Assembly (NCBI GenBank): GCA_025924315.1
Contig: JAICIO010000001.1
Span: 62,001-126,000, forward strand
Source of the DNA: Phycisphaerae bacterium
Lineage (GTDB): Bacteria > Planctomycetota > Phycisphaerae > Tepidisphaerales > Tepidisphaeraceae
DNA: 64,000 nucleotides
Direction of reading: 5' to 3'
Of this stretch, positions 47,889 to 53,018 are shown one piece after another. Below the pieces are notes generated by a model that worked only from the letters and a program-made list of their open reading frames with translations, was not told where the DNA came from and did no database searches. The stretch's first letter is position 1; each line of letters begins with the position of its first letter. Both the position numbers and the translations under genes were made by a program.

Positions 47889-49046
47889 TCAAGCGAGCGC
47901 CATCTCCGGCTCGATCACGCGATCATTCGCGGGATCGCGCTTCACTTCGCGGTAGAGCGTGTCGCGCTCGATCGGCGTGCGTCCCGCCTCGCGAATGCGC
48001 CGCTGGATGTCGCTCACGTGCAGTTCCTGGTGCACGCCATGACCTTCGCGCTTGGTGATATCGTACCACACGACGGTGCCGTCGAGATCATCGCAGCCCC
48101 AATCGAGCGCCACCTGCGAGAGGCCAACACCCTGCATGATCCAGAACGCCTTGATGTGGGCGATGTTGTGAAGCATCAGCCGTGCGATGGCGAGTGTCTT
48201 GAGGTCTGTCAATCCCGTAGGTCCCGGCAGATTTCCGAGCTCGCTGCCATCCGGGATGAAGCTGAGCGGAATGATGCTGTTGAAGTGCGCCCGCGAAGAC
48301 GCAAGCGACTCCGCCTGTAGCTCGCGAAGCGCGATCAGGTGCTTCACGCGCTCTTCGGGGGTTTCGACGTGGCCGTAGAGCATCGTCGCGTTGCTGTAGA
48401 TGCCGAGCCGATGGGCGGTGCGATGAACCTCGAACCACTTGTTCGCGCCGACCTTGCCCTTGAACACTTCTGCGTGCACGCGCTCGTCGAAGATCTCCGC
48501 GCCACCGCCAGGCAATGAGCCGAGGCCGGCGTCGCGAAGGGCGCTCAGCACTTCTTCAATCCTCATCCGCGCCACGCGCGTGAAGTGAACAATCTCGATC
48601 GCCGTGAACGCTTTCACGTGAAGCTGTGGACAAGCCGACTTCACGCCACGCAGCATGTCGAGGTAGTAGTCGAACTTGAGCCATGGATGGAGCCCGCCGA
48701 CGATGTGCACTTCGGTCGCGCCGGCGTCGGCGGCCTTCTTCGCGGTCGCGACGACCTGTTCGATCGGCATCTCATATGCGCCTTCTTCGCCGCGCTTGCG
48801 GTAGAAGGAGCAGAACTTGCAGCTGAGCGCGCAGACGTTGGTGTAGTTGATGTGCCGGTTGCGGTTGTAGTAGGTCTTATCGCCATGCAACCGCTCACGG
48901 ACGATGTTCGCGAGCCGACCGATGCCGTGCAGATCGCGGCTGTGGTACAGCGCCACGCCATCGTCGTATGAGAGCACCTTGCCCGCCAGAACCTTCTCGC
49001 GGATGGAATTCAGCGTTGGATCCGATACAAAACCGTCGTTGGACAT
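47889..49046 (-). CDS. mqnE: Aminofutalosine synthase MqnE (radical SAM)
   Basis: 385 aa from ATG 49046 (MSNDGFVSDPTLNSIREK). The radical-SAM cluster motif is C72-x3-C76-x2-C79 in NVCALSCKFCSF. MqnE-type features follow: HIVGGLHPWLKFDYYLDMLRG split over a strand and helix, GGGAEIFDERVH, TMLYGHVETPEERV, and WGCDDLDGTVV near the end. It joins 3-(1-carboxyvinyl)oxybenzoate with SAM in the futalosine menaquinone pathway. A prenyltransferase of the MqnP kind and ubiX lie 2-4 kb away. Confidence 0.95.
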   Translation of the reverse strand: MSNDGFVSDPTLNSIREKVLAGKVLSYDDGVALYHSRDLHGIGRLANIVRERLHGDKTYYNRNRHINYTNVCALSCKFCSFYRKRGEEGAYEMPIEQVVATAKKAADAGATEVHIVGGLHPWLKFDYYLDMLRGVKSACPQLHVKAFTAIEIVHFTRVARMRIEEVLSALRDAGLGSLPGGGAEIFDERVHAEVFKGKVGANKWFEVHRTAHRLGIYSNATMLYGHVETPEERVKHLIALRELQAESLASSRAHFNSIIPLSFIPDGSELGNLPGPTGLTDLKTLAIARLMLHNIAHIKAFWIMQGVGLSQVALDWGCDDLDGTVVWYDITKREGHGVHQELHVSDIQRRIREAGRTPIERDTLYREVKRDPANDRVIEPEMALA

Positions 49047-49123
49047 TACGCTGACAGTATAGGCGAGTCCGCCGACTGCGAAAGAGTCGTCACGACTTTT
49101 GAAAACAGGGCAAGGGAGGAACC

Positions 49124-50503
49124 GTGAACAGAGTAATCCGGATCGCATGCGTGCTGCTGACGCTTGCACTTGTGTTGCGCGCGAGCGCGGACGCCAAACG
49201 CCCGAATATCCTCGTGATCGTCGCGGACGATCTCGGGTACGCGGACATCGGCGCGCAGGGGCAGGAAAAGGACGTCCGCACGCCGAACGTGGACACCATC
49301 GCCAAGGCCGGCGTGCGGTTTACCAACGGCTACGTCACGTGTCCGGTGTGCAGCCCAACGCGGGCCGGCTTGATGACCGGTCGTTATCAGACGCGCTTCG
49401 GCCACGAAGTGAATCCAGGTCCGAACACGCCCGAGAATTTCGGGCTGCCCCTCGATCAAATCACAATGGGGCAGGCTTTCAAAAGCGCCGGTTACACGAC
49501 GGGCGCGATCGGCAAATGGCACCTCGGTTTCAAGACCGAGATGATGCCGACGCATCGCGGGTTTGATGAGTTCTACGGCTTTCTCGGAGGCGCGCACTCG
49601 TACACCGAAGTGACCGCGGGCAAAATCGCGAAGAACTCGGTGTTGCGCGGCGAGAAGCCAGTCGAATCGGTCACGTACCTGACCGACGACTTCGGCCGCG
49701 AAGCAGGAGATTTTGTCGATCGACATGCAAGTGAAGACAAGCCGTTCTTTCTCTATCTCGCGTTCAACGCGGTTCACACGCCGATGCAGGCGGCGGAGAA
49801 ATATCTCGACCGATTTAAGGAAGAGCCGGACAAGAAACGGCGAACGCTTCTCGCGAAGCTGTCCGCGCTCGACGACGCGGTCGGAGTAGTGCTCGGAAAG
49901 CTGCGCGATCACAAGATCGAAGACAGCACGCTGATCTTCTTCATCAGCGACAATGGCGGACCGACCGGCAGCAACGGTTCGCGCAACACGCCACTGCGCG
50001 GGTTCAAGGGGCAGGTCTTTGAAGGCGGAATTCGCGAGCCGTTTTGCATCCAATGGAACGGCCATATCCCGGCGGGGAAAGTCGACGATCGCACCGTCGT
50101 GTCGCTCGATATTTTTCCGACAGCGCTCGCCGCCGCCGGCGCGGAAAAGCCCGAGAATGTGAACCTCGATGGCGCAAACCTCTTGCCCTTCCTAAAGGAA
50201 GGAAACAAGGACGTCATTCACGAGTCGCTTTACTGGCGCTTCGGCCCGCAGTGGGCGATCCGCGATGGGAATATGAAACTCATGCACAATAATCCGGATG
50301 GGACGATGCTATTCGATCTCGGCAAAGACATGAGCGAAACGCACGATCTCGCGTCCGCGCAGCCCGACGAGGTGAAGCGGCTCAAGGCGAAATACGACGA
50401 GTGGAATTCGAAGAACATCGCGCCGCTCTGGCACGATTCGCGCGAAGGCAAGCGCGCTGCGAACGGGAAGGCCAGCGACGCGAAGGGTGAAGCCGACGAG
50501 TGA
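49124..50503 (+). CDS. Sulfatase (Sec-exported)
   Basis: A 459-aa sulfatase with signal peptide MNRVIRIACVLLTLALVLRASA. Metal motif PNILVIVADDLGYADIG, formylglycine motif C76-S-P-T-R in CPVCSPTRAGLMTGRYQ, AIGKWHLG, FFISDNGGPTGSN, and GIREPFCIQW. The T in place of the second S of CxPSR is an accepted variant. Aryl- or carbohydrate-sulfatase in the periplasm. Divergent from mqnE. A lysine/alanine-rich tail follows the catalytic domain. Confidence 0.94.
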   Translation: MNRVIRIACVLLTLALVLRASADAKRPNILVIVADDLGYADIGAQGQEKDVRTPNVDTIAKAGVRFTNGYVTCPVCSPTRAGLMTGRYQTRFGHEVNPGPNTPENFGLPLDQITMGQAFKSAGYTTGAIGKWHLGFKTEMMPTHRGFDEFYGFLGGAHSYTEVTAGKIAKNSVLRGEKPVESVTYLTDDFGREAGDFVDRHASEDKPFFLYLAFNAVHTPMQAAEKYLDRFKEEPDKKRRTLLAKLSALDDAVGVVLGKLRDHKIEDSTLIFFISDNGGPTGSNGSRNTPLRGFKGQVFEGGIREPFCIQWNGHIPAGKVDDRTVVSLDIFPTALAAAGAEKPENVNLDGANLLPFLKEGNKDVIHESLYWRFGPQWAIRDGNMKLMHNNPDGTMLFDLGKDMSETHDLASAQPDEVKRLKAKYDEWNSKNIAPLWHDSREGKRAANGKASDAKGEADE

Positions 50504-50982: not shown

Positions 50983-51903
50983 TCAAAAGAGGACGTCGAG
51001 AATGCCCAACGTGCCGAGCAGCAGGCTGATGATGCCGTTGATCGTAAAAAAAGCGAGGCCGACTTTCGACAGATCAGTTGGTCGGACAAGAGAGTGTTCG
51101 ACGATCAGCAGCGCGACCGCGATTCCGACGCCGATGAAATACAGCGTCGAAAGGGCGGGCGAATAGAGCCCGAGCAGGACAAGCATCGCGACGCAAATCA
51201 GGTGCGTGAAGCGACTGATCCACAGCGCAGCCGAAATGCCGAACTTCGAGGGAACCGAAAAGACTCCGCAGGCGAGGTCGCTCTCGTAATCCTGGCACGC
51301 GTAGATGATGTCAAACGCCGCGGTCCAGGTCAGCACCGCGGCGGCCATGAGGACCGGTTCCCAACTCAACCGACCGGCGATCGCGATCCAGGCACAAACC
51401 GGTGCAAGCGCCAGCGATGCGCCGAGGTAGTAATGGCAGAGGCGCGTGAACCGCTTAAGCAGCGGGTACGAACTGACGAAGATCAGCACGGGAATCGACA
51501 GCGCAAGTGGCCAGACATTGCCGTACTTCCAGTAAAAGCCATAGGTCGCCGCGATAAAACCAACGGCGCAGACGAAAAGGGTGGTTGCGACGAACGCGAC
51601 CGGGAGTTGCCCACTCGGAATGGCGCGACGGGCTGTACGAGGATTCTGCGCGTCAAGCTTCGCGTCCAGCAGTCGATTCGCGGCCATCGCGACGGTGCGG
51701 GCGCAGATCATGCAGATCACGATCAGAACGAGCTGAAATGCATGGGGCCAACCGCCTGCCGCGAGGAAGGTCGCGAGCAGCGCCCACGGCATTGCGAAGA
51801 CGGTGTGACTGATTTTGATGTCACGGGCAAAGAGCGAGAATCTCGCCGCAAAAGACGTCGGTGCTTTTGGCGTGTGGGGAATCGGTGCAGAAGCGAAAGT
51901 CAT
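50983..51903 (-). CDS. mqnP: UbiA-family prenyltransferase, MqnP-like
   Basis: 306 aa from ATG 51903 (MTFASAPIPHTPKAP). About eight to nine membrane helices. First aspartate motif ANRLLDAKLDAQNPRTARR (N-x3-D-x3-D) and second YACQDYESD. The NPRTARR-type continuation and the nearby mqnE favour the menaquinone-futalosine prenyltransferase over 4-hydroxybenzoate prenyltransferase. It would attach the polyprenyl chain made by an enzyme like the one at 29 kb. Longer start at 51927 is possible. Confidence 0.85.
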   Translation of the reverse strand: MTFASAPIPHTPKAPTSFAARFSLFARDIKISHTVFAMPWALLATFLAAGGWPHAFQLVLIVICMICARTVAMAANRLLDAKLDAQNPRTARRAIPSGQLPVAFVATTLFVCAVGFIAATYGFYWKYGNVWPLALSIPVLIFVSSYPLLKRFTRLCHYYLGASLALAPVCAWIAIAGRLSWEPVLMAAAVLTWTAAFDIIYACQDYESDLACGVFSVPSKFGISAALWISRFTHLICVAMLVLLGLYSPALSTLYFIGVGIAVALLIVEHSLVRPTDLSKVGLAFFTINGIISLLLGTLGILDVLF

Positions 51904-51911
51904 TGGATTGA

Positions 51912-51969
51912 AACCACGGATTAACACAGATGAACACGGATCAGTGTTTATCGGTGTTCATCTGTGGTT
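51912..51969. repeat. Imperfect inverted repeat with 10-bp periodicity
   Basis: AACCACGGATTAACACAGAT...GTTCATCTGTGGTT; the arms are built from GAT-x-AACAC units repeated every ten bases. It separates the prenyltransferase start from the CsrA gene end. Similar text is widespread between planctomycete genes (recollection). Confidence 0.7.
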
Positions 51970-51974
51970 CCATT

Positions 51975-52289
51975 TCACTCTTTGTCTTCCTTGATCGAGT
52001 TCGGCGATTCCTTTCGGTGAAGCGCCAAATGCGGCGGCGCGTTGATGCCGAGGCGCACCACGTCGCCCCGCACTTCGACCAGCGTCACCTGGATCATCGG
52101 GCCGATCGGAAAGGACTGGCCTTTGCTCAGCTCGTGAGCGGTCTGAAACGTTCCGCCGTCGTTCGGTCCGCCGAGCATGCGGCCCTTGGCGATCAGGCGA
52201 ACGGACTTCTCATCGATATCGGTCGGCGCCACAAAAATGTCATCGCCGATCACCAGCCATTCATCGACCCCGCGCGTGAACACAAACAT
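51975..52289 (-). CDS. CsrA-family RNA-binding regulator with duplicated core
   Basis: 104 aa from ATG 52289 behind GGAGGG, about 7 bases away; earlier starts add a poor leader. The ends are CsrA: MFVFTRGVDEWLVIGDDI at the N-terminus and TLVEVRGDVVRLGINAPPHL then ALHRKE at the C-terminus. Between them, about 45 extra residues include IGDDIFVAPTDIDEKSVRLIAKG, itself similar to CsrA strands 2-4, followed by a loop and a second start-like piece SKGQSFPIGPMIQVTL. CsrA normally has about 60 aa and works as a swapped dimer on GGA-containing mRNA leaders. Between mqnP and ubiX on the same strand. Confidence 0.8.
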   Translation of the reverse strand: MFVFTRGVDEWLVIGDDIFVAPTDIDEKSVRLIAKGRMLGGPNDGGTFQTAHELSKGQSFPIGPMIQVTLVEVRGDVVRLGINAPPHLALHRKESPNSIKEDKE

Positions 52290-52351
52290 CAGCACACCCT
52301 CCGATGGCGAAAAGAGCATCCCGCATAGCCACGGTCCCCGGCGAACGACCC

Positions 52352-52954
52352 CTAAACGCTCTTCGCTGGTGGTCGAATATTCTTTGGATCCCACCGCGTG
52401 TCAAATGTATGGGGCACGCCGATGAGATCGAGAAGCTTCCCCGCGACAAAGTCAACCACTTCACCGACCGTGGCGGGGTTCAAATAAAACCCCGGATTTG
52501 CCGGGGCGAGAATCACGCCCGCGTCGGTCAGCACCTTGTAATTGTTCACGTCGATCGGCGAGAGCGGCATTTCGCGATGGCACAAAATTAATTTCCGGCG
52601 CTCCTTCAATGTGACCGCGGCGGCGCGGGCGATGAGGTTGTCGCCGAGGCCATGTGCGACGGCCCCGAGGGTGTTGCTCGAGCAGGGGACGATCACCATG
52701 CCGTCGTGAAGAAACGATCCGCTGGCGAGCTTCGCGCCGACGTCGTTGTAGCTGTAGAGCGAGATGTTGTGATCATCCGTCCCGGCCAGCACGCCCAGAT
52801 CAACGCTCTCCATCCCGAGTTCATCATGCAGCAACCGTCGACCCAGCGGCGAGATCACGAGATGCGTCTGCACGCCCGCCGCGACAAGCCCGTGAATAAA
52901 CCGTTGCGCATACAGCGCGCCGCTCGCGCCGGTGATGGCGGTGACGATGTTCAT
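52352..52954 (-). CDS. ubiX: Flavin prenyltransferase UbiX
   Basis: 200 aa from ATG 52954 (MNIVTAITGASGALYAQRF). Family features: the GASGALYA phosphate loop, IVPCSSNTLGAVAHGLGDNLIARAA split over two segments, and the CHREMPLSPI motif with PANPGFY. It prenylates FMN for UbiD-type decarboxylases, which in the futalosine route act late in menaquinone synthesis. No ubiD in the window. 60 bases upstream of the CsrA-like gene on the same strand. Confidence 0.95.
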   Translation of the reverse strand: MNIVTAITGASGALYAQRFIHGLVAAGVQTHLVISPLGRRLLHDELGMESVDLGVLAGTDDHNISLYSYNDVGAKLASGSFLHDGMVIVPCSSNTLGAVAHGLGDNLIARAAAVTLKERRKLILCHREMPLSPIDVNNYKVLTDAGVILAPANPGFYLNPATVGEVVDFVAGKLLDLIGVPHTFDTRWDPKNIRPPAKSV

Positions 52955-53018
52955 CCGGTAAATCATACGGCATTCGTGCCAAAAGGGATTGACCTTTCAG
53001 AGAGTTTGAAAGACCGCG

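Follow-up and report, generated by a model that had tools for sequence, protein, structure and literature searches.

In the canonical CsrA dimer, each of the two sheets combines strands of both chains, in the orders b5A-b2B-b3B-b4B-b1A and b5B-b2A-b3A-b4A-b1B (PMC3791407). Each RNA face brings together b1 of one protomer and b5 of the other, L4 and R44 being critical; in E. coli CsrA dimers, both working faces are needed for bridging and for full glgC repression, and single-site targets also exist (PMC7652899). In Re-CsrA (PDB 5Z38), a C-truncated CsrA linked to a full CsrA forms a compact barrel with an untraceable b5' and a single ligand site (PMC5864733). The need for two RNA faces, i.e., two-site bridging in one mRNA, has so far been studied with mutant mixed dimers. 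To our knowledge, a single-chain CsrA dimer was previously known only as a laboratory construct, and our literature search, conducted mostly beyond subscription journals, found no natural tandem or single-chain CsrA. We describe here a tandem gene that we consider, with a probability of about 60%, to be a naturally fused, monovalent CsrA pseudo-dimer, likely acting as a local regulator of menaquinone synthesis.

The window, i.e., the whole stretch of DNA that was analysed, covers 64,000 nt of a Phycisphaerae bacterium (GCA_025924315.1, contig JAICIO010000001.1, positions 62,001-126,000 of the forward strand), and its features are collected in Table 1. The tandem csrA frame runs on the minus strand from an ATG at 52289 to a stop codon at 51977-51975. 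The Pfam CsrA model (PF02599) matches the protein in two separate stretches with 68.2 bits (E 5.9e-19; gathering cut-off 27), which places it in the CsrA family at the Pfam gathering score; the NCBIfam CsrA equivalog models score below their cut-offs (64.3 vs 73 for NF002469, 57.6 vs 70.1 for TIGR00202). The original prediction of a CsrA gene at 51975-52289 is confirmed, and the peptides that it quoted, MFVFTRGVDEWLVIGDDI, VRGDVVRLGINAP and DDIFVAPTDIDEKSVRLIAKG, are exact; to judge from its sequence, the 104-aa frame is a genuine gene whose product is related to CsrA. An upstream GTG start at 52394, which would give 139 aa, is disfavoured because the alignment of the relatives begins at the ATG. 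The ribosome-binding site of the gene, GGAGGG, lies within a predicted four-base hairpin loop (52290-52312, minus strand), the classical shape of a CsrA target; since the orthologues have no such hairpin, we did not use it as evidence.

Table 1. Features of the tandem csrA gene, its protein and its neighbours in the window.
Feature	Position	Strand	Basis
Tandem (single-chain) CsrA gene, 104 aa	51975..52289, stop codon included	(-)	ORF listing, Pfam, family CsrA profile
N-lobe, residues 1-37: b1-b2-b3-b4; R6 of the putatively retained RNA face; TDID motif, residues 23-26	52179..52289	(-)	HMM match 1-32, predicted strands
GGPNDG loop, residues 40-45	52155..52172	(-)	Invariant as GG[PA]xDG in 8/8 type I proteins
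Middle strand X, residues 47-55, predicted to replace b1 of the second lobe	52125..52151	(-)	Models, structure overlay, alignment
C-lobe, residues 56-94: b2'-b3'-b4'-b5', A84-P85, H91-R92	52008..52124	(-)	HMM match 9-55, predicted strands
C-terminal tail, residues 95-104, short low-confidence helix	51978..52007	(-)	AlphaFold model of the window protein
ubiX (flavin prenyltransferase), directly upstream of tandem csrA	52352..52966	(-)	TIGR00421 180.4 bits, above cut-off
ubiA-type prenyltransferase (MqnP-like), directly downstream	50983..51927	(-)	TIGR01475 251.9 bits, above cut-off
mqnE (aminofutalosine synthase), further downstream	47889..49169	(-)	TIGR03700 471.8 bits, above cut-off

We compared the protein with a profile built from 34 canonical Phycisphaerae CsrAs. 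Residues 1-32 match profile positions 1-32 (16.0 bits), which correspond to CsrA strands 1-4, and residues 57-103 match positions 9-55 (54.0 bits), which correspond to strands 2-5 and the helix. Hence, strands 2-4 are the repeated part, strand 1 being present at the front only, and strand 5 and the helix at the back only. With b2-b4 found twice in one chain, in the profile matches as in two structure models, the protein departs from the canonical layout of a single b1-b5-helix protomer. The original prediction had seen about 45 inserted residues carrying a second strand-2-to-4 unit. Strands 2-4 do occur twice, but the segment DDIF...IAKG that it took for the repeat is the native unit of the first lobe, and the actual repeat, at residues ~57-84, belongs to the second; the protein is better described as two tandem lobes and a middle strand between them than as an insertion of 45 residues. 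The profile recovers two CsrA domains in 13/13 related tandem proteins, with the lowest scores in genomes G011 and G002 and in the second unit of G015.

AlphaFold was run on the window protein and on a 45%-identical orthologue, each alignment consisting of two sequences. The window-protein model (pLDDT 81.1, pTM 0.68) has predicted strands at residues 2-5, 10-14, 18-25, 29-37, 47-55, 59-61, 67-74, 77-83 and 90-94. The orthologue model (pLDDT 84.7, pTM 0.74; two of the five models were poor, with pLDDT 55 and 48) shows the nine strands in this same succession, followed by a long helix at 95-109. The order in both is b1-b2-b3-b4-X-b2'-b3'-b4'-b5', then the helix. Whole CsrA chains (2bti_A, 1vpz_A, 5z38_H and 2jpp) can be superposed on residues 47-107 of the orthologue model (53-58 residues, 1.4-1.5 A), so that X would occupy the place of b1 of the swapped protomer and the C-lobe of this model is shaped like one protomer of the swapped dimer. 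On residues 46-104 of the window-protein model, CsrA chains fit loosely (about 3.9-6 A over 52-56 residues), and for this reason the strand-swap arrangement rests on the orthologue model. The latter has no CsrA match above Z 5.8, and 3u2g, a beta fold for which no relationship is known, scored higher. Neither model obtained a significant E-value in Foldseek; CsrA chains appeared among the ranked hits, at a probability of up to 0.97, with the window model alone. Judging from the topology, X probably pairs with b4 of lobe 1 as a hairpin.

The alternative considered with the original prediction, an insert forming a disordered loop, is not what the models contain: the block is predicted as strands, with a pLDDT of about 79-95. 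An RsmN-like helix insert was rejected as well, b2 (10-14) leading to b3 (18-25) via a short turn and no helix being predicted before residue 97. The proposal of two CsrA cores in one chain, distinct from RsmN, is supported by the sequence, by 12 related proteins and by the two structure predictions.

The search set comprised 60 relatives and then the whole Phycisphaerae family (26 genomes), the order having no other family in the set. Type I tandem proteins are encoded in eight of the 26 genomes (the window genome G000, G002, G003, G005, G009, G011, G015 and G017), spread over eight genera; the relatives are 31-45% identical to the window protein, and 14 residues are invariant. Type II, retrieved from Pfam CsrA hits, is found in five (G002, G012, G015, G019 and G021) and has no GGxxDG loop. 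Both are present in series in G015, in a 203-aa frame between ubiX and ubiA (L042, G015:C298:15663-16262, minus strand) which amounts to four CsrA lobes in one chain. The profiles of the two types align over their full length (hhalign probability 98.5%, E 3.6e-15), which makes descent from a common fused ancestor likely. The search for this form in other planctomycetes, suggested at the outset, yielded 13 proteins with the window protein included, all from one Phycisphaerae family: among 397 genomes of the class and 392 of the phylum, clear type I or II scores came from known family members alone, an absence that is provisional because scoring was confined to the 12 top candidates of each genome and the phylum sample contained no positive control for type II. 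One match was obtained by searching named genomes (JANYKD010000027.1, a Phycisphaerales MAG contig, with the same protein as on G003:C45), and no match to tandem CsrA in IMG/VR. Canonical CsrA is also encoded in genomes with a type I gene, and the window genome encodes two further CsrA domains of canonical type.

Other CsrA forms were observed in the family. In the window genome (L048:5031-5786, minus strand; G000:C47), a full CsrA domain that retains R6 and H43-R44 shares a reading frame with a yeast-FCY1-like cytosine deaminase (match to PDB 1uaq, 4.2e-34), the two being joined by a linker of ~25-50 aa. This fusion occurs in at least seven family genomes (other loci L029, L063, L064, L070, L075 and L076), and our literature search found no paper on it; joining an RNA-binding domain to such an enzyme invites the question whether deamination is directed or regulated by RNA. 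Short CsrAs in which a few residues are added between strand 2 and strand 3, such as VVGDQDGSFNQVLKVTVLEIRGDKVKLGFEAAREVPVNRLEV, are encoded in G006 (L143 and L144) and G010 (L142), His43 being replaced by Asn in the G006 pair.

At the level of sequence, the tandem protein keeps one RNA face, made up of b1 of lobe 1 and b5 of lobe 2 with R6 and R92; the second face appears lost, b1 of lobe 2 being now X and b5 of lobe 1 absent. In the window protein, A84-P85 and H91-R92 of the C-lobe correspond to E. coli A36-P37 and H43-R44, and the residues of the kept face (R6, A84-P85, H91-R92, K93 and E94) are all present; R92 thus stands for Arg44, and Leu4 is replaced by Phe4. In strand X, the canonical Leu4/Arg6 positions are occupied by His52/Leu54, and the Arg6 position is hydrophobic (L/V/M/I) in 13/13 tandem proteins. 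The built-in asymmetry proposed by the original prediction can be sharpened into one RNA face apparently kept and the other abolished; RNA binding itself we infer for the window protein, and several orthologues are devoid of key RNA-contact residues.

The neighbourhood of the gene is that of menaquinone synthesis. On the minus strand of the window, the order is ubiX, tandem csrA, ubiA and, further down, mqnE; the ubiA-type gene scores 196-229 bits with the MqnP models, below their cut-offs. All eight type I genes adjoin ubiX and/or ubiA of the menaquinone cluster: the gene lies immediately upstream of ubiA in 7/8 genomes and immediately after ubiX in 6/8. In G011, it remains with ubiA, ubiX being ~7 kb away, and in G003 it follows ubiX, with no ubiA in the searched flank. 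Five family genomes without type I (G006, G013, G016, G020 and G023) have ubiX and ubiA adjacent, and type II genes, G015 excepted, have no ubiX/ubiA neighbourhood. A UbiX tree built to date the gain was mostly unresolved; G002, G005, G011 and G015 cluster together. G010 has another ORF between ubiX and ubiA (L085, minus strand, 2039-2476 of the reversed locus, at most 146 aa, MPNSAERVTAKTQ...), with no visible CsrA resemblance. Our literature search found no CsrA-type protein linked to menaquinone synthesis.

The computation shows two CsrA lobes per chain, a nine-strand layout, the loss of the second face at the sequence level and a conserved neighbourhood. In the mechanism that we propose, lobe 1 would give b1-b4 and lobe 2 b2-b5 and the helix, X replacing b1 of lobe 2, and lobe 1 having neither b5 nor helix; a single chain so composed would by itself adopt the barrel for which two chains of CsrA are ordinarily required, and would presumably be monomeric. 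One RNA face would be kept, b1 of lobe 1 meeting b4/b5 of lobe 2 with R6 and R92, and the other lost. Such a monovalent CsrA could cover a single GGA site and could not bridge two. Its simplest role would be to act on its own operon or on nearby genes, and the constancy of its position in the ubiX-ubiA-mqnE cluster suggests that it regulates locally, with the menaquinone genes as its presumed target.

The main rival to the monovalent regulator is that type I has been repurposed, keeping the fused barrel and being no longer mainly a GGA-RNA binder; RNA binding would be on the way out, and the TDxD turn, the GG[PA]xDG loop and E53 would together create a new binding site for another protein or a small molecule, perhaps one from the UbiX/UbiA steps. 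We regard this as unlikely, albeit worth serious attention. In its favour, T23, D26, G36, G40, G41, D44, G45 and E53 are invariant in type I and absent from type II and from the aligned canonical CsrAs, the TDxD and GGxxDG motifs being invariant in 8/8. R44 is lost in 5/8 type I members and R6 in 3/8 (R6 is present in 5/8, R44 in 3/8 and both together in 3/8, so that one or the other is gone in five). The tie of the gene to ubiX/ubiA fits as well, and so does the outcome of the search for GGA leaders that the original prediction had suggested, which failed: no common GGA hairpin was found in the 60 bases upstream of 12 tandem genes. On the other hand, the window protein retains the residues of the kept face, the sister form type II has R6 in 5/5 and H43-R44 in 5/5, and no ligand or partner is known.

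It is far less probable that the tandem chain swaps strands with the ordinary CsrA of the same cell, as a partner or a poison altering its valency. Canonical CsrA is indeed co-encoded in type I genomes, and lobe 1, because its b5 is missing, would leave an open sheet edge in the models, but a single tandem chain is able to satisfy its own core. We give still less credit to a decaying CsrA duplicate without function. The patchy distribution (8/26 genomes) and the divergence to 31-45% identity would agree with decay; an open frame, 14 invariant residues and a neighbourhood fixed across eight genera at this same divergence argue against it.

The monovalent regulator remains our preferred reading for the window gene. 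A wider scenario for the family is more tentative: evolution may have produced a monovalent single-chain CsrA, of which type II would serve to regulate RNA at a single site and type I would be a component of the menaquinone cluster with a new TDxD/GGxxDG site, both being fused in the 203-aa four-lobe chain of one genome. A natural one-face CsrA beside ordinary CsrA in the same cell would permit a direct comparison of the two, and the tandem protein, if our reading is true, is a ready single-chain scaffold. The finding also connects a CsrA-type protein to menaquinone synthesis.

Among known systems, canonical CsrA/RsmA (PF02599) shares with the tandem protein the strand sequence, the hinges, and the AP and HRKE motifs of the putative kept face, and differs as a homodimer of chains of ~60-75 aa with two equal RNA faces. 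RsmN/RsmF of Pseudomonas aeruginosa is likewise a natural CsrA relative in which extra sequence rearranges the chain topology, but its helix is inserted between b2 and b3, and it forms a two-chain dimer with two RNA sites (PMC3791407). The E. coli CsrA/CsrA-R44A mixed dimer, as summarised from Mercante 2009 in PMC7652899, is also a CsrA barrel in which a single RNA face is functional; it was obtained by mutating and mixing chains, whereas in the tandem CsrA the single face would be built into one chain. The closest is Re-CsrA: the two models and the orthologue overlay give the tandem protein a Re-CsrA-like order (copy 1 b1-b4, then copy 2 b1-b5-helix), and in both a C-truncated first copy (b1'-b4') is joined to a second that runs through b5 and the helix, with one complete ligand face. 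Re-CsrA, however, was engineered from two copies of the E. coli protein and has a linker and a complete b1, whereas the tandem CsrA is natural and diverged, and its one middle strand X, which follows a short conserved loop, is degenerate.
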